The notes: generated by a model from the sequence alone, not told the origin. DNA of 64,000 bases from Bacillota bacterium (GCA_013177945.1 JABLXW010000008.1:1-64000), one strand, 5' to 3'; shown: positions 5,372 to 14,645, counted from the first letter of the stretch. Numbers and translations are program-made.

Positions 5372-5626
5372 TCAGATAAAAACTTCTACATTTTCTACAT
5401 TGCCGAGTTCGGAGGCGCACTGTAGAATTGCCCCCTCCCCAGGCCCAAGCTGGCCGACCTGGATATCGGGGACAGCCCCGGTGCTACCACGGTCTGAAGC
5501 AGCAAGGGCAACAGGTAACGGGAGGGCTGGTGCCGACGGAAGGCCCGGGCGCGGGGACCCGGCGGGGCAAGTATGCCCGGTCAGTCCACCACGATTTACA
5601 GTAAAAGAATTTAAACCCGAAGACAA
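5372..5626 (-). CDS. Possible small hypothetical protein (84 residues)
   Basis: A minus-strand frame with a TTG start at 5626 is preceded by AGAGGTG six bases upstream. The middle is Pro/Ala-rich. The C-terminal third (DIQVGQLGPGEGAILQCASE, ending NVEVFI) looks more protein-like than a random GC-rich frame. I do not recognise the family. It lies upstream of the CBM gene on the same strand with a 117-bp gap. The alternatives are a chance open frame over a structured GC-rich leader, or a leader for the CBM gene. Confidence 0.3.
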   Translation of the reverse strand: MSSGLNSFTVNRGGLTGHTCPAGSPRPGLPSAPALPLPVALAASDRGSTGAVPDIQVGQLGPGEGAILQCASELGNVENVEVFI

Positions 5627-5861: not shown

Positions 5862-6512
5862 ATGAATGAAGAAAGATTTTTTGAGAAAATTTCTGAGGCC
5901 GTAATTCGCGGAGAAAGCGAAGCCGTTGTCGCAGCAGTGAGGGAAGCCCTCGAGGCAAAGATAGATGCCTTCAGTATTGTCGAAAACGGTCTAACAAAAG
6001 GAATGGACGTAGTTGGCGAAAAATTTGAAAGACAGGAATTTTTTCTGCCGGACCTGCTTATCGCGGCAAACGCTGTAAAGTCGGCCATGGAAATTTTAAA
6101 ACCCCATCTTGCCACACGTTCTGCCGGAAAGGAAGCGGTAGTTGTCATTGGAACCGTTGAAGGAGATATTCACGACATCGGCAAGAACCTCGTTGCCTCA
6201 GCGCTGGAAGCGTCAGGGTTTAAAGTCATCGACCTGGGTGTCAACGTGCCTCCTGCCGAATTCGTTAAAAGCGTGAAGGAATACAACCCGGATATAGTAG
6301 CCTGTTCCGCTCTCATTACGGCAACGATGGTAAATATAAAAGATGTTATTAATGCACTAAAAGAGGCCGGTGTGAGAGATAAAGTCAAAATTATGGTAGG
6401 AGGAGCGCCTCTTTCCAGGGAATTTGCCGAAAGCGCCGGAGCCGATTACTACGGACGAACGGTCCGGGATGCAGTCGTTATTGCGAAAAATATCGTGGGG
6501 GAGGGGAACTGA
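5862..6512 (+). CDS. Methyltransferase corrinoid protein (MtbC/MtvC family)
   Basis: This 216-residue cobamide carrier shuttles a methyl group between two methyltransferases. A four-helix cap (about 1-85) is followed by a Rossmann-like B12-binding domain. The DxHxxG motif is D102-I-H104-D-I-G107, with His104 the expected lower cobalt ligand. SALITATM and GGAPLS segments that line the nucleotide tail follow. The ATG at 5862 has AGGGGAGGAAG upstream, while the longer frame from 5823 has no site. It is the first gene of the operon and is followed within 2 bp by the UroD-type methyltransferase. Its substrate partner is inferred from context only. A close relative of the whole protein is fused to the kinase at 11170. 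Confidence 0.93.
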   Translation: MNEERFFEKISEAVIRGESEAVVAAVREALEAKIDAFSIVENGLTKGMDVVGEKFERQEFFLPDLLIAANAVKSAMEILKPHLATRSAGKEAVVVIGTVEGDIHDIGKNLVASALEASGFKVIDLGVNVPPAEFVKSVKEYNPDIVACSALITATMVNIKDVINALKEAGVRDKVKIMVGGAPLSREFAESAGADYYGRTVRDAVVIAKNIVGEGN

Positions 6513-6513
6513 A

Positions 6514-7686
6514 ATGAAAATGACCCCAAGAGAACGGGTGCTTCGTGCTATTGAGGGCAAAAGTGTAGACAGAACACCGGTAGATTTCGGCGGTTTTATC
6601 TCCGGGATTGTAGAAGGCTCCAAAAATAAAATTGCCGAAGGGCCCCCTTATGGAATCAGGGCCCTGTACGAATATTGCGGCATCGAAGATTATGAAGAGC
6701 CGGTTATTTCGCCGATTCTTAGTGATGTCGCAAACATCGATGAACGCCTTCTCGTCAGGCTCGGTGCCGACATCAGACATGTTTTTACAGGGTCGCACCC
6801 GGTGGAAAAACTCCCCAACGGAAATTTGCGCGATATGTGGGGTATTATCTTGCAGCCAGCGGGATTTTACTGCAGTGTACCTGACCCGCTCACCCCGCTT
6901 CGAAGCGCCACAACGATAAAAGAGATTGAGGAATACCCTTACTGGCCCGATCCGAAAGATCCTGTTTTTCTGGAAGGGGTTCTCGAACAGGTTAAAACAC
7001 TCCGGGAAACCACGGATTACGCAATCACTCTTTTCCCTGGGTACGCAGGCTTAATCTTCCATACATATGCATGGCTTCGTGGATTTGACAACTGGCTCAT
7101 GGATATGCGGCTCAACCAAAAGATATATTTTGCTTTAACTGAAAAAATAACAGAAGTTGCTCTCTCAGTGCTAAAAGAGGTGCTTCCGGTTATAGGCCCC
7201 TATATCGACATCATTCTTTACGCTGACGATATGGGAATGCAAACCCAGCCGTTTATACCCTTAGACATGTACCGCAAGTTCGTAAAACCCTGGACCAAGA
7301 GATGGGTAACTGAAGTCAAGCGCATGGTTCCTCACGTAAAAGTCCTGTACCACTGCTGCGGCTCTATCTTCGATTTCATTCCCGATTTCATTGACTGCGG
7401 CATCGATATTATCAACCCGATCCAGCCTCTCGCCAACAAGATGGAGCCGTGGCGGCTAAAGAAAGAATACGGAGATCGGATCTGCCTGCACGGCGGCATC
7501 GACATCCAGCGCCTGGTAAACTTCGGCACACCCGAGGAAATTAAGAAAAGGGTCAAGGAAACGCTCGCGATTTTTGAAGGCAGCCGCTATATCCTTGCCT
7601 GCTCTCACAACATTGAACCTGAAACTCCCCCGGAAAACATCGTTGCGGTTTTCGACGCCGCAATGGAATACGCCCGGGGAGAGTAA
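6514..7686 (+). CDS. UroD-family corrinoid methyltransferase (methyltransferase I type)
   Basis: This 390-residue protein has the uroporphyrinogen-decarboxylase fold used by MtaA/MtbA and acetogen O-demethylase methyltransferases. The zinc-site pattern is visible as YHCCGS (His280, Cys281/282) and Cys363 in LACSHNIEPETPPEN. HGGID (326-330) is another family landmark. It begins MKMTPRERVLRAIEG at the ATG at 6514, directly after the corrinoid gene's stop, with GGGGGAGGGG as ribosome site. It would demethylate a substrate and methylate the corrinoid protein. With a DHPS-fold enzyme also in the operon, this is most likely the substrate-side methyltransferase. The methyl donor cannot be read from sequence; a methoxylated aromatic is one possibility. 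Confidence 0.88.
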   Translation: MKMTPRERVLRAIEGKSVDRTPVDFGGFISGIVEGSKNKIAEGPPYGIRALYEYCGIEDYEEPVISPILSDVANIDERLLVRLGADIRHVFTGSHPVEKLPNGNLRDMWGIILQPAGFYCSVPDPLTPLRSATTIKEIEEYPYWPDPKDPVFLEGVLEQVKTLRETTDYAITLFPGYAGLIFHTYAWLRGFDNWLMDMRLNQKIYFALTEKITEVALSVLKEVLPVIGPYIDIILYADDMGMQTQPFIPLDMYRKFVKPWTKRWVTEVKRMVPHVKVLYHCCGSIFDFIPDFIDCGIDIINPIQPLANKMEPWRLKKEYGDRICLHGGIDIQRLVNFGTPEEIKKRVKETLAIFEGSRYILACSHNIEPETPPENIVAVFDAAMEYARGE

Positions 7687-7699
7687 AAGGGATTCTACG

Positions 7700-7721
7700 G
7701 GGGCCGGCTGCGGCCGGCCCC
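7700..7721 (+). other. Strong intercistronic hairpin
   Basis: A perfect 9-bp GC stem (GGGGCCGGC / GCCGGCCCC) with a TGCG loop lies in the 59-bp gap between the methyltransferase and the DUF1638 gene. It is followed by TCAAAAAG, not a T-run. It therefore looks more like an mRNA-stabilising or processing element that gives the first two genes higher expression than a simple terminator. Confidence 0.55.
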
Positions 7722-7745
7722 TCAAAAAGTTTCCGGGGGTAAAAA

Positions 7746-8429
7746 ATGGAACAAAAGAATGTCGTACTGGTTATTTGCGAGACCCTGGCTCCGGAAATCG
7801 AAGATAAGGTGCCTCCTCACGTGGAAGTCAACGTAATTGAGTTCGGCCTTCACCTTTTTCCTAAAGAGCTAAATAAAAAACTCCGGGACATCTTAGGCGC
7901 GCTGGACCGCGAAGGAAAGTGGGATTTAATCCTGCTCGGATACGGCCTGTGTTCCGAGGGCGTGGTCGGCTTAAAATCGGAAAAAAGCAAAATCGTGATG
8001 CCCAGGACTGATGACTGCATCGCCATCTTTCTGGGGTCCACCGAGGCGTATAAAAAGGAGTTAACCAGGGACCCGGGAACCTATTACTTAACCAAAGGCT
8101 GGATAGAGCACGGGGAGGACCCTTTATCTATTTCTACGCGCCGCCATCAATGGACAAAAAAATATGATGAACAGACCGCCCAGTGGGTGGCACGTGAAAT
8201 TATGAAAAATTATACGAGAATCGCCCTGATCGACACCGGGACTTACGAATTGAGTCCTTACATAGCTTACGCCAAAAAGGTTGCAGAGACCTTTGATCTA
8301 AAATTTGAAATTATCCCGGGCTCCCTGTTTCTGCTGGAGAAGCTTCTGCACGGGCCCTGGGACGACAATTTCCTTGCGCTGGAGCCCGGCCAGGAGATTA
8401 CCAAAGAAATGTTTTTGCCAAAATATTAA
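7746..8429 (+). CDS. DUF1638 family protein
   Basis: This 227-residue soluble protein matches the DUF1638 pattern. It has an N-terminal VLVICETLAPEI strand, a GYGLCSEGVVGL segment, the PRTDDCIAIFLGS motif and a C-terminal IPGSLFLLEKLL. Its biochemical role is not established to my knowledge. Genes of this family are often found beside corrinoid methyltransferases, and here it sits inside such an operon between the two methyltransferase genes. The conserved cysteines (Cys in YGLCSEG and DDCI) could bind a metal or cofactor, which is inference. The ATG at 7746 has a GGGGG-containing ribosome site. Confidence 0.85.
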   Translation: MEQKNVVLVICETLAPEIEDKVPPHVEVNVIEFGLHLFPKELNKKLRDILGALDREGKWDLILLGYGLCSEGVVGLKSEKSKIVMPRTDDCIAIFLGSTEAYKKELTRDPGTYYLTKGWIEHGEDPLSISTRRHQWTKKYDEQTAQWVAREIMKNYTRIALIDTGTYELSPYIAYAKKVAETFDLKFEIIPGSLFLLEKLLHGPWDDNFLALEPGQEITKEMFLPKY

Positions 8430-8471
8430 ACCGGAATTTAATTAACTTTAATACCTGGAGGTTGATGGTCG

Positions 8472-9266
8472 TTGCTGATTATCGGAGAAAAACTGAACAG
8501 CACAATTCCGCGGGTACGCGAGGCCATTAAGACTAAAGACAGGGCGTTTATTCAGGAACTGGCCCGGCAACAGGTTGCAGCAGGCGCCGAAATGCTCGAC
8601 GTAAACACAGCAATGGGCGTCGAAAACGAGCCCGCCGACATGGAGTGGCTGGTGCGCACGGTGCAGGACGCGGTTGACGTGCCTTTGTGCATCGACAGCA
8701 CAAACCCGGAGGCAATTAAGAGGGCGCTCCAGGCTCACAGAGGAAAGGCAATGGTCAACTCGATCTCGCTGGAAAAACCGCGGTTGGAAGGGATTCTCCC
8801 CCTGGTCCTCGAATACGGCTGTTCTGTAGTTGCCCTGACGATGGATGAAAGAGGGATCCCCGATTCGTCTGCCGACAGAGTCGCGCTGGCCGAACGCTTC
8901 CTGGAAATTGCCGAAAAGACGAACCTGAACCTGGAAGACGTTTACTTTGATCCTTTAGTCCTGCCGCTCGCCGTGAACAATAGAAACGCACTTACATTTT
9001 TTGAAAGCCTTGCAGAAATCAAACAGCGCTTGAAAGCACGCACGATTTCCGGCCTCAGTAACGTCTCCCATTCCCTGCCTAAAAGGAGGTTGATCAACCG
9101 GTACTTTTTGGCGATTTGCATGAGTTTGGGCATGGATGCCGCAATTCTGGATCCGCTGGATCGAAAACTCATGACCGCGGTTGTCACCACCAACCTGTTG
9201 TTAAACAAGGACTTTATGTGCCAGGGATACCTGAAGGCTTACCGTGCAGGATTTTTAGAAGAATAA
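8472..9266 (+). CDS. DHPS-fold methyltetrahydrofolate:corrinoid methyltransferase (MtvA/AcsE-like)
   Basis: This 264-residue pterin-binding TIM-barrel protein resembles AcsE/MeTr and the O-demethylase component MtvA. Landmarks are MLIIGEKLNSTIP, AEMLDVNTA, VNSISLEKPR and the C-terminal GLSNVSHSLPKRRLIN and DAAILDPLDRKLM. It would transfer the methyl group from the corrinoid protein to tetrahydrofolate, feeding the Wood-Ljungdahl pathway. The start is a TTG at 8472 with GGAGGT nine bases upstream. At 264 residues it matches the single-domain family length. Its presence makes the operon a complete donor-to-folate route. Confidence 0.88.
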   Translation: MLIIGEKLNSTIPRVREAIKTKDRAFIQELARQQVAAGAEMLDVNTAMGVENEPADMEWLVRTVQDAVDVPLCIDSTNPEAIKRALQAHRGKAMVNSISLEKPRLEGILPLVLEYGCSVVALTMDERGIPDSSADRVALAERFLEIAEKTNLNLEDVYFDPLVLPLAVNNRNALTFFESLAEIKQRLKARTISGLSNVSHSLPKRRLINRYFLAICMSLGMDAAILDPLDRKLMTAVVTTNLLLNKDFMCQGYLKAYRAGFLEE

Positions 9267-9313
9267 ACGAAAAAATATCATGACTGGCCTTATATTTGTT
9301 GAGGAGGTCTTTT

Positions 9314-11155
9314 GTGAAAAACTTTAAGGTTACCTTTCAACCGGCTAACCTGGAAATAAGTATGCCTGAGGGGGCCACGATCAAGGAGGCCCTCGAAAAC
9401 GGGGGGTTATACTTCGACTTCCCCTGCGGGGGGAGAGGGAAGTGCGGCAAGTGCCGTGTACAGGTTTTAGAGGGGGCGGGTTTACCCACCCCCGTTGAAA
9501 GGGAGCACCTGGAGGAAAGGGAGATCGAAGAGGGGATCCGCCTCGCCTGCATGACCCGGATCCACGGAGACCTGATCGTCCGGCTTCCCTTCGAAAAAAG
9601 GCCGGAAGCAAAGATCCTCCAGATCGCCCCCGAAAAGGATGTAAAACTGCAACCCCGGATTCGCAAAGTCTACGCGGAGGCAGACCTTCCCTCCCTTAAC
9701 GACCAGCGCCCAGACTGGGAGCGTTTAAAGGCGGGTGCGGGGCTAGGTGAACTCTCCATACCCCTTCCCCTGCTCCGCAAACTGCCCCAGATCGCCCGCG
9801 AAACCAGATACCGCATCACCCTGGTGCTGGAGGGAGAAAAGGTCCTCGGCCTCGAAAAATTCGATACAAGGGACAGGCTGCTGGGGATGGCCTTCGATGT
9901 CGGCACTACAACGGTCGTGGGTTACCTCATGGATCTCCGGACCGGCAAGGAATTAAGTGTGGCCTCAACGCTCAATCCCCAAACATCATACGGCGCCGAC
10001 GTCATCTCGCGCATCACCTTTGCGAGCCAGGAAAAAACCGGCCTCGAAAAACTTCACAGGTCGATCGTAACGGCACTGAACGAACTCATCGGTGAAGCTG
10101 TAGAAAGGGCCGGCGCGGCGCGGGAAGACGTATATGCCTTAACTGTTGCAGGGAATACGTGTATGCACCACCTTCTTTTGGGGGTTGATCCGACCTATCT
10201 CGCGCTCTGTCCGTACGTGCCGGTGACGAAAGGGCCGTTGGTGTTCAGCGCGAAAGAACTGGGAATTGAAATCAACGACGGGGGACGAATTTACATGCTT
10301 CCCAACATTGCAGGATTTGTAGGCGCGGACACCGTTGCCGTCATCCTTGCAACAGACCTCGACCGGAGCAGGGAGATCAAGCTCGCAGTCGACATCGGAA
10401 CGAACGGGGAAATCGTCCTCGGCAGCCAGGAAAGACTGCTCGCCTGCTCCGCCGCAGCGGGCCCCGCCTTTGAGGGTGCTCAAATCTCCTGCGGTATGAG
10501 GGGGGCAAAGGGAGCAATTGACCACGTGCGATTCGGAGAGGATCTGGAACTCTCGGTAATCGGAGGAGGAAAGCCTGAAGGGATTTGCGGATCCGGCCTG
10601 ATCGATGTCGTTGCAGGACTCCTCGAGTGCGGCATTGTCGACCAAAGAGGAAAAATCCTCTCCCCCCACGAAATTGCTTCACCAAAAGCCGAAAAATTCA
10701 AAAATAACATCGTTCAGCACGACGGCGCCAACGCCTTTTTGCTTGTCGACGAATCCCAAACAGCCCACGGCGGGCCGATTCTCATTACCCAGCGCGACAT
10801 CCGGGAACTCCAGCTAGCAAAGGGCGCCATTGCCACAGGAATTCAGGTGCTGATGGAGAAGCAGGGGATCGAAACGGCTGAGATCGCAGAGGTCCTCCTG
10901 GCAGGCGCCTTCGGGAACTACCTCAACCCGCGGAGCGCCTGCGCGATCGGCCTCCTTCCCCCGGCGCTGGCAGAAAAAGTAAAAGGGGTGGGCAACGCGG
11001 CCGGAACAGGAGCCAAGGCGGCGCTCCTCTCGTTTGACGAATATCAACGGGCGGCGCTGATTTCCGAATCGGTAGAATATGTAGAACTATCCGCATACCC
11101 CAATTTTAACTCCCTTTTCGCCGGCTCCCTGTCCTTTCCGGTGCCTGGAGATTGA
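9314..11155 (+). CDS. Ferredoxin/ASKHA corrinoid reductive activase (RACE family)
   Basis: This 613-residue protein reactivates corrinoid proteins that slip to the cob(II)alamin state. The N-terminus holds a [2Fe-2S] ferredoxin domain with the cluster pattern CGGRGKCGKC and a later Cys in LACMTRIHG. The C-terminal two-thirds is the ASKHA (DUF4445) domain with phosphate/ATP-type loops AFDVGTTTVVGYL and AVDIGTNGEIVLG, and AGAFGNYL near the end. The GTG at 9314 follows GAGGAGGT by five bases, whereas the frame's earlier TTG at 9296 has no site. It lies between the folate-side methyltransferase and the sensor kinase. ATP-driven reduction is the known role of the family. Confidence 0.92.
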   Translation: MKNFKVTFQPANLEISMPEGATIKEALENGGLYFDFPCGGRGKCGKCRVQVLEGAGLPTPVEREHLEEREIEEGIRLACMTRIHGDLIVRLPFEKRPEAKILQIAPEKDVKLQPRIRKVYAEADLPSLNDQRPDWERLKAGAGLGELSIPLPLLRKLPQIARETRYRITLVLEGEKVLGLEKFDTRDRLLGMAFDVGTTTVVGYLMDLRTGKELSVASTLNPQTSYGADVISRITFASQEKTGLEKLHRSIVTALNELIGEAVERAGAAREDVYALTVAGNTCMHHLLLGVDPTYLALCPYVPVTKGPLVFSAKELGIEINDGGRIYMLPNIAGFVGADTVAVILATDLDRSREIKLAVDIGTNGEIVLGSQERLLACSAAAGPAFEGAQISCGMRGAKGAIDHVRFGEDLELSVIGGGKPEGICGSGLIDVVAGLLECGIVDQRGKILSPHEIASPKAEKFKNNIVQHDGANAFLLVDESQTAHGGPILITQRDIRELQLAKGAIATGIQVLMEKQGIETAEIAEVLLAGAFGNYLNPRSACAIGLLPPALAEKVKGVGNAAGTGAKAALLSFDEYQRAALISESVEYVELSAYPNFNSLFAGSLSFPVPGD

Positions 11156-11169
11156 ACGGAGGGAGAATC

Positions 11170-12960
11170 ATGGGAAGCGCCCCGGCAGCCGGCAAAGACA
11201 TATTCAACGAAATTATTAATGCGGTCATTACAGGAGATTCCTTTAAGATCAAGTTGCTGGTGGAACAAGCGCTGGAAAAAGCCATAAAACCCGAGGCAAT
11301 TATCAAAGAAGGTTTAATTCCAGGCATGGAAACGGTAAGTGCCAAATTCCAGAGTTCCGAATTTTACGTGGTTGACGTGATTGTTGCCGCGAACGCAATG
11401 CAGACCGGGGTCCAGGTTCTTAAAGAAAAATGCTGCAGGGAAAAAGCGTTTGAGGCTGAGAGCCGGGTTGTCATTGGCACCGTGGAAGGGGACATCCACG
11501 ATCTGGGAAAAAACATCGTTGCGCTTACACTGGAGGGAGCAGGATATGAAGTCATCGATCTGGGGGTAGACGTCTCACCGGCTCAGTTTGTTGAGGCCAT
11601 TACAAAATTTCACCCCGATCTTGTCTGCATTTCAGCACTGCTTACGGTTACCATGTTAAATATGCAGGATGTCATCGAAGCAATTAAAGAGGCCGGGTTG
11701 CGGGACAGAGTCAAAATTATCATCGGCGGAGCGCCTGTCACCCAGAGCTTTGCAAACAAGATCGGAGCGGATGCCTACGTAAAATACGGCACAAACGTAG
11801 TGCAAAAAGTAAGGGAGCTTCTCGAGGAAGAAAAGAATAAAAAGAGGTCTTCTCTTAGTTTCTCTTCCTTTGTAAACAGAAAACACCAGGAAATTTTTCA
11901 AAAGCTCTTTGATATTAAACCAGCCTTCATCGACGAGAGCGGTAATGTGATTTTGAAAGGAGAAGATTTTCCCACACCCTGCCGGGAATGCCGGAAATGG
12001 TTTCGGGAACACAGCTTCCGAGAAGAAAACGCGGCAATTCTCCTATGCTCCGGCGGCTTAGCAGTCATTGAAGCCTCAATTGAACTTGATCACGGAAAAA
12101 CAGGAAAAATTAAGTGCGGCCCTTTCAGGTTAAGCACTTCCTCAAAAGACTGCACCCCGGCGATAAAAGAACTATCCCGCCTTGAACTCGAGAGGGTTCT
12201 AGCCGTCGTACGTCTGGTTGGGGAGCAAATTGGACACAAAGCAAGGGAGCGCCTGCTCGAAGCTCAAATTACAGAACAAAGAGAAAGCATCATTCGCTCT
12301 TTAAAATTCCAGGAAGAACTAAGAAATGCTCTCAACGAGGCCAACTACCGTTCCCTGCAGTCGCAGGTAAATCCCCACTTTTTATTCAACAGCCTGAACA
12401 GCCTGGCCCGGCTCGCAATGCTGGAAGAGGCGGAACGAACCGAGAAATTCGCCTACGCTTTATCCAGGACCCTCCGCTACATCCTCCGGAACATTAAGGG
12501 TACGGTAAAAATCGCCGAAGAAATCCAGATGATCCGTGATTACCTCTTCATCCAGCAGGTGCGGTTTTCCGATCGGATCAGCGTTAATCTGGAAATAGAA
12601 GACAGCGTCTCCGAGGGGAGGATCCCCTGCATGGTCCTGCAGCCGATTGTGGAAAACGCCATCATCCACGGCCTGGAACCCCTTGAAGGAAAGGGAAGGC
12701 TTGAGATCTCCGGGAAAAAAGAGGGGCAAACCGTTTTCTTCGAAATAACAGACAACGGCGTTGGCATCCCCCCACACAAGCTGAAAGAAATCTCTCACTT
12801 AAACATAAATCGCTCCGGCCGGGGCCACGCGACGGGCCTGGGTCTTGTCCACGTACACCAGAGGCTTCAGCATTATTTTGGTTCGAATTACGGCCTGGAA
12901 ATCCAGAGCCAGGAGGGCAAGGGTACGTCGGTAAAAATTTACCTCCCTTACATCTGCTAA
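11170..12960 (+). CDS. Soluble histidine kinase with a fused corrinoid-binding module and a PocR-like domain
   Basis: This 596-residue protein has four parts. Residues 1-220 form a full methyltransferase-type corrinoid protein (helical cap plus B12 domain, D108-I-H110-D-L-G113, GGAPVT). Residues about 235-325 resemble a PocR ligand-binding domain, with a C271-x2-C274 pair, LLCSGGL (Cys293) and KCGPFR (Cys316). Residues about 360-450 are the LytS/YesM-type kinase core with phospho-acceptor His403 in SQVNPHFLFNSLNSL. The ATPase domain shows QPIVENA (Asn496), DNGVGIP and TGLGLVHV. No membrane segment is visible. The ATG at 11170 has GGAGGGAG upstream. It is followed by its response regulator and lies in the methyl-transfer operon. 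The corrinoid half closely resembles the catalytic carrier at 5862. Sensing corrinoid methylation or redox state is inferred. Confidence 0.9.
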   Translation: MGSAPAAGKDIFNEIINAVITGDSFKIKLLVEQALEKAIKPEAIIKEGLIPGMETVSAKFQSSEFYVVDVIVAANAMQTGVQVLKEKCCREKAFEAESRVVIGTVEGDIHDLGKNIVALTLEGAGYEVIDLGVDVSPAQFVEAITKFHPDLVCISALLTVTMLNMQDVIEAIKEAGLRDRVKIIIGGAPVTQSFANKIGADAYVKYGTNVVQKVRELLEEEKNKKRSSLSFSSFVNRKHQEIFQKLFDIKPAFIDESGNVILKGEDFPTPCRECRKWFREHSFREENAAILLCSGGLAVIEASIELDHGKTGKIKCGPFRLSTSSKDCTPAIKELSRLELERVLAVVRLVGEQIGHKARERLLEAQITEQRESIIRSLKFQEELRNALNEANYRSLQSQVNPHFLFNSLNSLARLAMLEEAERTEKFAYALSRTLRYILRNIKGTVKIAEEIQMIRDYLFIQQVRFSDRISVNLEIEDSVSEGRIPCMVLQPIVENAIIHGLEPLEGKGRLEISGKKEGQTVFFEITDNGVGIPPHKLKEISHLNINRSGRGHATGLGLVHVHQRLQHYFGSNYGLEIQSQEGKGTSVKIYLPYIC

Positions 12961-12986
12961 ATATTCGCCAAAAAGGAGTGTTCTCG

Positions 12987-14645
12987 TTGTATTCCGTCCT
13001 GCTCGTTGATGATGAAATGCTGGAAAGGCAGGGCTGGAGGCGGATCCTGGAAAAGCACCGCTCCGGCTCCGTACGTGTAATCGGAGAAGCCAGAAACGGG
13101 AGAGAGGCAGTGGAACTGGCTAAAAAGGAGAGGCCAGATCTCGTTTTAATGGATGTAAAGATGCCCGGACTGGATGGAATTAAAGCCGGCAGGTTGATCA
13201 AGGAATTCCTCCCGGGAGTCAAAATCATCGTAATATCCGCGTATGACGAGTTTTCCTACGCCCAGGAAGCGCTCAAGTTCGGCGCGGTGAACTACCTTTT
13301 AAAGCCTGTTCAACCAGCGGAAATGCTCGAAATCGTCGACCAGCAACTCGGCATTCTGGAAAAAGAAAGAAGACAAAAGAAAGAAGAGGAATCGTTCCAG
13401 GCCATGTTCCAGAAAATTATGCCGTACCTCAAAATAGGGTTCATCTTTGAATGGCTGTCAGGAAACGTCAAGCTGGCGGACGAACTCCACGAGAGAGCGG
13501 AATTTCTAGGACTTAAACCCCTCCCCCAATTAGTGATGGTCGTAAACATAGACAACTTCCTCCGGCTAACTGCCGGCCAAAAAGAAATTGAACGCCAAAT
13601 ATTAAAGCAAAAAATATACCAGAAAATAACGGTGCTGGCCGAGGAATATCACCAAAGCCAATGCATTCCCCTTCAGGGCGACAAATACGGGGTGCTGATA
13701 ATGCCGGAGAGGGGCGAAACCCCTGAGAAAGTGCGCCGGCGGGCAGCGCGTCTTGCAGAAACCATCAGGCGCGAAATAGAAAAAGACCCTTTTATTCCTG
13801 CAACAGTAACAATTGGGATCGGCAGAGTCTACACCGAGGGCACCGACCTTCACCTTTCATACCAGGAGGCCCTAAAGGCGCTCGAATACAAACTTTACAC
13901 CGGCGGCAACCAGGTTATCCACATAGATGATGTTTTGCCTTTTGACGAACGGGTGCACTCCTATCCGTTCCCCCTGGAAAGGGAGCTGCTTTCCTGCGTC
14001 AGGATCGGCGACGGCGAACAGGCCCGGTACTGGCTGACCAGGCTCTTGAACGAACTCTTTTCAAAAACCAATAACCACCCGGATCTTCTTAAAACGCGGA
14101 TCCTCGAATTGCTTGTCGTCCTTTCCCGCCAGGCGATCGAAAGTGGAGCCAGTTCGGAAGAGGTCGCCCGGCAAAACTTTAAATACACCCAAGAACTGTG
14201 GCAAAAAGAAGACTTAGGCGAACTCCATGAGTGGATCTTTGCTAAAGTAGAAAACTTGATCAAGCTAGTTCAAAGCGGCCGGGACATGCGCCAGCAGGAT
14301 ATTATGAAAAAGATTCTTGCTTACATTCACAGCAATTACCACCGCGACATCACCCTTGAAGAAGTTGCCGGGGCGGTTTTCCTCAGTCCGTGTTATTTGA
14401 GCCGGATTTTCAAACAAGTACAGGGCGTCAACTTTATCGATTATTTAACCAGTATAAGGCTGGAAAAAGCAAAAGTTCTTCTTCGATCAAGCGGCGAATC
14501 GATTGCCCAGATTGCCGGAAAAGTAGGGTACCAGGACCCTAAATACTTCAGCACCGTCTTCAAAAAACACGAGGGCTGCACCCCAAGCGAATACCGGAGC
14601 CGCCATTTTCCTTTGCAGGACCCGAGTTCGGCAGTTTCTCCCTAA
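12987..14645 (+). CDS. YesN-type response regulator with AraC DNA-binding domain
   Basis: This 552-residue regulator has a receiver domain (1-120) with acidic pocket D8/D9, phospho-acceptor D56 in LVLMDVKMPGLDG, Ser84 and Lys106 (LLKPV). A central region (about 140-430) contains a degenerate GGDEF-like stretch (VTIGIGRVYTEG) common in YesN proteins. The C-terminal AraC double helix-turn-helix (about 440-541) includes ITLEEVAGAVFLSPCYLSR and IAGKVGYQDPKYFS. The TTG at 12987 with AAAAGGAG eight bases upstream is preferred over the GTG at 12978, which overlaps the ribosome site. It is the last gene of the corrinoid operon, is paired with the kinase, and most likely controls the operon itself. 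Confidence 0.9.
   Translation: MYSVLLVDDEMLERQGWRRILEKHRSGSVRVIGEARNGREAVELAKKERPDLVLMDVKMPGLDGIKAGRLIKEFLPGVKIIVISAYDEFSYAQEALKFGAVNYLLKPVQPAEMLEIVDQQLGILEKERRQKKEEESFQAMFQKIMPYLKIGFIFEWLSGNVKLADELHERAEFLGLKPLPQLVMVVNIDNFLRLTAGQKEIERQILKQKIYQKITVLAEEYHQSQCIPLQGDKYGVLIMPERGETPEKVRRRAARLAETIRREIEKDPFIPATVTIGIGRVYTEGTDLHLSYQEALKALEYKLYTGGNQVIHIDDVLPFDERVHSYPFPLERELLSCVRIGDGEQARYWLTRLLNELFSKTNNHPDLLKTRILELLVVLSRQAIESGASSEEVARQNFKYTQELWQKEDLGELHEWIFAKVENLIKLVQSGRDMRQQDIMKKILAYIHSNYHRDITLEEVAGAVFLSPCYLSRIFKQVQGVNFIDYLTSIRLEKAKVLLRSSGESIAQIAGKVGYQDPKYFSTVFKKHEGCTPSEYRSRHFPLQDPSSAVSP

Follow-up and report, generated by a model that had tools for sequence, protein, structure and literature searches.

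The nearest described system to the one reported here is the mec cassette for dichloromethane, which encodes a PocR histidine kinase, MecA, and a regulator, MecD, together with a separate corrinoid protein, MecB (PMC9768040). The likeness lies in a PocR kinase and its regulator being placed inside a corrinoid methyltransferase cassette with a corrinoid protein of its own, but MecA is described as 430 aa, which is too short to hold PocR plus a carrier domain, and MecB is a separate polypeptide; the kinase described below has a carrier domain and so its identity as a MecA is ruled out. Type 1 mlp gene clusters bring together URO-D methyltransferases, a corrinoid protein and a Ram/RACE activator, but as described they have no THF methyltransferase, and a sensor or PocR is not mentioned (PMC10418091). 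B12-binding domains are found in other signalling proteins, namely the CarH/LitR, AerR/PpaA and photocobilin regulators, but these respond to light by means of AdoCbl or a bilin, have a different cap and are not kinases of methyl-transfer operons. The kinase core and regulator layout of our locus are those of the LytS/YesM-YesN pairs of kinase and RR-AraC regulator, but its kinase lacks a membrane sensor and has two sensory domains in the cytosol, of which one is a corrinoid carrier. A carrier-type corrinoid domain is joined to a transcription regulator in one-component AraC-corrinoid proteins of gut Clostridia (L101, L122 and L127, among the matches listed); these have an N-terminal cupin-AraC part, no kinase and the carrier-type P-E cap residues, and theirs would therefore be a separate fusion. 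In the open-licence papers searched we found no description of a B12- or corrinoid-binding histidine kinase of the present layout, in agreement with the original prediction, which knew of no characterised sensor so built.

The window analysed here, a stretch of 64,000 nucleotides, is a piece of a 2.71 Mb genome in 55 contigs. Seven closely spaced genes run along its + strand from 5862 to 14645, with a corrinoid protein first and a kinase and response regulator last, and the gaps between them are, in order, 1, 59, 42, 53, 14 and 17 nt (from ORF coordinates):

5862..6512, + strand: stand-alone methyltransferase corrinoid protein, the catalytic carrier, 216 aa (B12-binding_2 and B12-binding, Pfam; TIGR02370, 218.1 bits)
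6514..7686, + strand: URO-D superfamily corrinoid methyltransferase, 390 aa (URO-D, 1.7e-34)
7746..8429, + strand: predicted DUF1638 protein, function unassigned (PF07796, 4.8e-43)
8472..9266, + strand: methyl-THF:corrinoid protein methyltransferase, MT2 (PRK07535, 339 bits, cut-off 259)
9320..11155, + strand: RACo/AcsV-type reductive activator of corrinoid proteins (RACo_C_ter, 9.4e-82; Raco_middle, linker and Fer2)
11170..12960, + strand: fused corrinoid-PocR-histidine kinase, 596 aa (ORF, Pfam, alignment of orthologues)
12978..14645, + strand: response regulator, YesN type, 555 aa (receiver PF00072, 6.6e-29; GGDEF_2-like PF17853, 5.6e-14; AraC-type HTH PF12833, 1e-24)

The URO-D methyltransferase, which among solved structures is closest to a methylcobalamin:CoM methyltransferase (5.9e-8), is presumed to be the substrate-specific MT1. 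The activator gene, which may alternatively start at 9296, lies in the same operon as the kinase and 14 nt upstream of it, and the kinase itself starts at ATG 11170 with a plausible ribosome site in front. Both of the last two reading frames are present as originally described, and the second, as had been proposed, is the adjacent regulator, with both a receiver and an AraC-type HTH. The kinase is built from the following parts:

11203..11424, + strand: helical cap domain of the corrinoid module, residues 12-85 (B12-binding_2, PF02607, 3.7e-18)
11464..11808, + strand: B12-binding Rossmann domain, residues 99-213 (PF02310, 1.4e-29)
11491..11508, + strand: cobalt-ligand motif D108-x-H110-x-x-G113 (invariant in 21/21 kinases and 82/82 carriers)
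11896..12174, + strand: diverged PocR-like sensory domain, residues 243-335 (Pfam 22.6 bits, borderline; hhalign to PocR profile 94%, 1.2e-7)
12178..12339, + strand: long linker helix, residues 337-390 (AlphaFold model, moderate to low confidence)
12343..12579, + strand: His_kinase domain of LytS/YesM type, residues 392-470 (PF06580, 1.5e-24; H403 phospho-acceptor in QVNPHFLFN, motif invariant)
12631..12948, + strand: HATPase_c domain, residues 488-593 (PF02518, 1.4e-13)

Judged from its sequence, the N-terminal part of the kinase forms a complete corrinoid domain of the methyltransferase type. Both corrinoid Pfam domains score over their cut-offs (65.9 bits against 23; 102.8 bits against 32.1), and the DxHxxG, SxL and GG signature with its histidine ligand is kept in all 21 fused kinases that we collected, bearing out the claim of a corrinoid protein with the motif, here at residues 108-113, intact. 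S155, L157 and GG186-187 are present in every one of these kinases and likewise in the 82 stand-alone carriers used for comparison, and the invariant columns of a 15-row alignment include G103, T104, D108, H110, G113, S155, L157, G186 and G187. T161, a threonine in 19 of the 21, is taken by us to correspond to Ser810 of the His-Asp-Ser ligand triad of MetH, and F60, found in 21/21, occupies the position of MetH F708, the residue touching the cobalt-bound methyl. In a full-length AlphaFold model the pLDDT is about 90 at residues 11-230 and below 50 in most of the PocR and H-box region; since the model is good in the corrinoid domain only, the relative placement of the domains was left unused. 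This part of the model fits the corrinoid-bound Moorella structure 1y80 with an rmsd of 0.6 A over 122 columns at 52% identity, and matches the MttC and 4jgi carriers across the whole module, far ahead of CarH. The domain very probably binds a cobamide.

A domain search recovered the other parts that had been named, the cap, B12-binding, His_kinase and HATPase_c domains all being matched, with PocR just short of its threshold (PF10114, 9.5e-5, 22.6 bits against a cut-off of 23.9). Scored together with its in-frame neighbours, the window kinase reaches 26.9 bits for PocR, and the Moorella-type orthologues match this family strongly (2.1e-17, 63.8 bits). In hhalign, a profile built from the six closest fused proteins matches ten PocR kinases plus one PocR-AraC protein at 94% probability (1.2e-7), and the Moorella-type middle domain at 97% (1.6e-11); we read the middle domain as probably PocR because of these orthologue matches and profile comparisons. 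The PocR-like domain of the window kinase, with cysteines at C271, C274, C293 and C316, is without a segment that holds one cysteine-bearing helix of canonical PocR and retains the C-x-x-G-[LF] motif. The LytS-type kinase core is as first described (His_kinase, 1.5e-24; HATPase_c, 1.4e-13): the H-box, N-box and G-boxes are all present, H403, N496 and D528 are invariant, and the PHFLFN box is common to all 21 fused proteins. Against its closest relative, from a second species of the genus, the window protein shows strong purifying selection on its corrinoid and kinase parts and a several-fold higher rate of change in its PocR-like part (dN 0.07 and dS 1.02 for the corrinoid domain; dN 0.26 and dS 0.81 for the PocR-like part).

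In the original prediction this domain closely resembled, along its whole length, the catalytic carrier encoded in the same operon (5862-6512). The similarity itself stands, at 49% identity over 192 aa by BLAST and 44% globally, but there is nothing special in it, as other, unrelated corrinoid proteins are equally close or closer (45-49%, and the 52% of Moorella 1y80). Given this lack of special likeness the kinase domain would be no recent copy, and a recent duplication of the operon's carrier is ruled out by the corrinoid-domain tree, where the nearest carriers are others. In a free tree of B12 domains the kinases fall into two groups, with the window type apart from the Moorella type; a one-clade test on the corrinoid-domain tree is compatible with a single origin (p 0.67), and a tree of kinase cores puts all fused kinases together (87/70, modest support) and apart from PocR-only kinases. 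These two results disfavour two independent fusions and lead us to prefer a single fusion event. Unfused counterparts occur elsewhere in the window's genome, which encodes a PocR-only kinase and, immediately next to a separate corrinoid protein, a PocR-AraC regulator of the one-component kind.

We compared the 21 kinase domains residue by residue with the 82 stand-alone carriers. The comparison set and the AraC fusions came from 80 corrinoid-protein loci among the matches listed, none of which has a fused kinase. A cap proline near the upper face of the corrin is a proline in 78/82 carriers and absent from every kinase, where it is T, V, M, A or I (V68 in the window kinase). All kinases have a cysteine at 153, as against 14/82 carriers, and the T-T-T-M stretch at 159-162 has drifted in the Moorella-type kinases, with loss of the conserved T159 and M162. 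The curated TIGR02370 model for working carriers has a cut-off of 215.3 bits, which the operon's carrier passes (218.1) and the fused domain, at 194.3 bits, does not. The kinase has the same complete module of cap and B12-binding domain, DxHxxG, SxL and GG included, as MtvC, MttC, MtgC, MtaC and Moorella 1y80, but it differs from such stand-alone proteins in its fusion to PocR and a kinase core, in the lost proline and in its lower score. Because the proline is missing throughout, the fused domain looks specialised relative to the carriers, and our reading is of a domain that would still hold a cobamide but be freed from part of the carrier's job. Docking of a methyltransferase or of RACo on the kinase may have been lost, given that the proline has gone in all of the kinases and M162 and T159 in the Moorella type.

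The architecture is not confined to this window. Searching 60 related genomes and then 398 genomes across the phylum, we collected 21 fused proteins in five family groups, which come from 20 of the 398 sampled genomes and one further species of the window's genus, whose protein is 82% identical overall. Recurrence at this number of loci means that the architecture is neither chance nor an assembly chimera, and the spread over five groups with motifs kept indicates that the fusion is an old, conserved protein. A homologous response regulator adjoins the kinase in 21/21 loci. The survey of neighbouring genes that had been suggested found methyl-transfer genes, methyltransferases among them, near the kinase in 18 of 19 informative loci, the two other loci ending too near the kinase; at the one exception (G085) the kinase stands between rpoN and glycolytic genes on a 14.7 kb stretch with no methyl-transfer gene. 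In the window's family the fused kinase adjoins carrier and URO-D genes, and it was not found in Thermacetogenium phaeum, a member of that family. An orthologue is present in Moorella thermoacetica, and the Moorella loci have a carrier gene first, then THF methyltransferase, fused kinase, regulator, RACo and URO-D methyltransferase. The largest group of genomes with the fused kinase, all of one genus, is taken to be Moorella because the acsE of one of them (G032) scores 565 bits with the M. thermoacetica MeTr structures across 260 residues. On our own assignment, from its place in the chromosome and its gene order, the Moorella locus would be that of mtvC5 (Mothe_c21700) and mtvA3 (Mothe_c21690), the transcripts of which rise on methanol in a paper that does not mention the kinase (PMC13391211).

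We propose a cytosolic two-component system that would regulate the methyl-transfer operon ending with its genes, and control of its own operon is very probable. The carrier-type domain would hold a cobamide whose cobalt has H110 as its lower ligand, PocR would sense a methylated substrate or related small molecule, and the corrinoid domain would signal the state of the cofactor: loaded, oxidised as Co(II), reduced to Co(I) via the operon's RACo, or methylated via its methyltransferase. Through the linker helix, a motion of the cap or a shift in the Co-His-Asp-Thr network would reach the kinase core of LytS type, and this would phosphorylate the neighbouring RR-AraC regulator and so adjust expression of the operon. 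A kinase with two inputs, PocR for substrate and the corrinoid domain for cofactor state or availability, is the most likely arrangement, and a slowly evolving corrinoid domain beside a fast PocR part would be as expected for a varying substrate sensor coupled to a constant cofactor sensor. We think it probable that the corrinoid domain gates the kinase in some form. Whether it would do so by the chemical state of the cofactor, and not by its mere presence, is put forward tentatively, at somewhat under an even chance; we lean slightly this way because a full carrier module with its cap has been recruited and kept, and because enzymes for reduction and methylation are co-encoded. In a stronger version the kinase would be a substrate of its own pathway, with its corrinoid domain reduced by RACo and methylated by the operon methyltransferase (or giving up its methyl group to the THF methyltransferase), so that it would serve as a dummy carrier whose methyl-cobalt bond is the signal and methyl flux is read directly. 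This we regard as rather unlikely, since the domain is no recent copy of the operon's carrier and has lost the cap proline in all 21 proteins.

The facts put forward for sensing of cofactor state may be explained almost as well by sensing of availability, and the two are close. On the latter account the domain would report only whether cobamide is bound and would form an AND gate with PocR, so that both substrate and cofactor are needed. The fully conserved cobamide-binding signature agrees with this, as does the fact that, at the cap and the mouth, residues usual in catalytic carriers are relaxed in the kinases. There is no cobalamin riboswitch in the window, yet at least six score above cut-off elsewhere in the genome, and the operon is therefore without the usual B12 control: in its leader no Rfam match was found up to E 5 except one spurious low-complexity match, there is no conservation in relatives and the fold z-score is -1.5, which together rule out a leader riboswitch. 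A dependence of the expected kind is seen in D. kuznetsovii, which makes hardly any of its methanol methyltransferase system when cobalt and B12 are lacking (PMC5770442). It is the altered cap and the missing riboswitch that bring availability close behind state, as a possible reading held at about one chance in three; against it, the recruited domain is of the carrier type and not a simpler B12-binding one, and strong constraint runs along the whole domain, with F60 kept.

Readings that assign the domain little or no cofactor sensing fare less well. It could act as a decoy partner of the operon's methyltransferase or RACo, with docking as the trigger and the cofactor structural or absent, given that its fold is identical to that of the carrier bound by those enzymes and that the genes share one operon. 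The invariance of every cobamide-binding residue is more than docking alone demands, the cap proline is lost in 21/21 and the domain has not co-varied into a special likeness with its own operon's carrier, which leaves this improbable. A tethered, extra catalytic carrier whose fusion has no sensory meaning would account for the carrier type of the domain, and carrier-enzyme fusions do exist (an MtaA-carrier in L029 and an MttB-carrier in L030), but the operon already encodes a carrier that scores above the subfamily cut-off where the fused domain falls below it (218 and 194 against 215), the cap residues differ from those of carriers, and one fusion has been kept with kinase and regulator across five families; we consider it very unlikely. 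Least probable by far is light sensing through B12, as in CarH or photocobilin. A general fold likeness to the B12 domains of CarH, AerR and photocobilin would speak for it, but the closest structures are methyl carriers and the family occurs in strict anaerobes, within methyl-transfer operons. The CarH cap motif for AdoCbl is W-x9-EH, and its absence here, with F60 (F in 21/21) and hydrophobic residues at 70-71 (V70-I71 in the window kinase), rules out identity as a CarH/LitR photoreceptor.

Little has been learned about how anaerobes choose among their dozens of systems for corrinoid-dependent methyl transfer. A 2026 study of chloromethane describes as 'largely unexplored' how Acetobacterium dehalogenans regulates its 26 systems, and states that no regulatory system had been identified for cdm (PMC13222342). 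The fused-kinase family offers a defined, soluble and testable sensor that is present in Moorella thermoacetica, and it may be a potential biosensor scaffold for methyl donors or cobamides. Its layout would be a variation on known kinds, namely B12-based sensors and PocR two-component systems, but there is a real chance that the signal itself is new. The presence of a built-in corrinoid carrier in a sensor kinase of anaerobic, acetogen-type bacteria suggests that the cell may read the state of the cofactor when deciding on production of the pathway, and if sensing of cofactor state is true, then the signal for a histidine kinase would be an organometallic bond, between carbon and cobalt, that metabolism makes.

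Among the residues of the corrinoid domain, C153 (numbered as in the window's fused kinase) is a cysteine in all 21 of the kinase corrinoid domains, compared with 14 of the 82 stand-alone carriers, and lies two residues ahead of the conserved corrin-contacting serine. A corrinoid module is also found in one-component regulators of gut Clostridia and Lachnospiraceae, at three loci:

L101:6179-7774, AraC-corrinoid regulator
L122:4490-6091, AraC-corrinoid regulator
L127:9056-10657, AraC-corrinoid regulator

These proteins combine an AraC_binding cupin and an AraC HTH with a complete corrinoid carrier module at the C-terminus. Since their carrier-type cap residues are retained, the sequences indicate that a carrier was joined to a regulator a second time, in a separate event.

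Two further loci bear on how such systems are arranged:

L032:8998-11089 (on contig 3 of the window's own genome, at roughly 121.0-123.1 kb), PocR-AraC regulator and corrinoid protein
L146:6002-9527 (genome G085), fused kinase and regulator

At the former, a 461-aa PocR-AraC regulator directly adjoins a stand-alone corrinoid protein of 218 aa, a pair that may be an unfused counterpart following the same logic as the fused kinase. At the latter, the genes are flanked by rpoN and gap/pgk, and methyl-transfer genes are absent from the 14.7 kb stretch around the kinase; this is possibly a rewired system.

Within and beside the operon itself, and in one other genome, are:

Window 5440-5600, non-coding stretch rich in G+C, lying ahead of the operon on its 5' side
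Window 7746-8429, DUF1638
L030:865-2973 (genome G010), MttB-family methyltransferase-corrinoid carrier fusion, a single 702-aa protein

On folding, the non-coding stretch forms long hairpins (-83 kcal/mol, z -1.5); an Rfam search gave no match to it, and no conservation was found in relatives.

DUF1638 recurs in methyl-transfer loci. It adjoins the fused kinase in G051 (L026:18204-18884), comes after the MttB-carrier fusion in G010 and is present again in a methyl-transfer locus on contig 3 of the window's own genome. Its tie to methyl-transfer loci seems to merit study.
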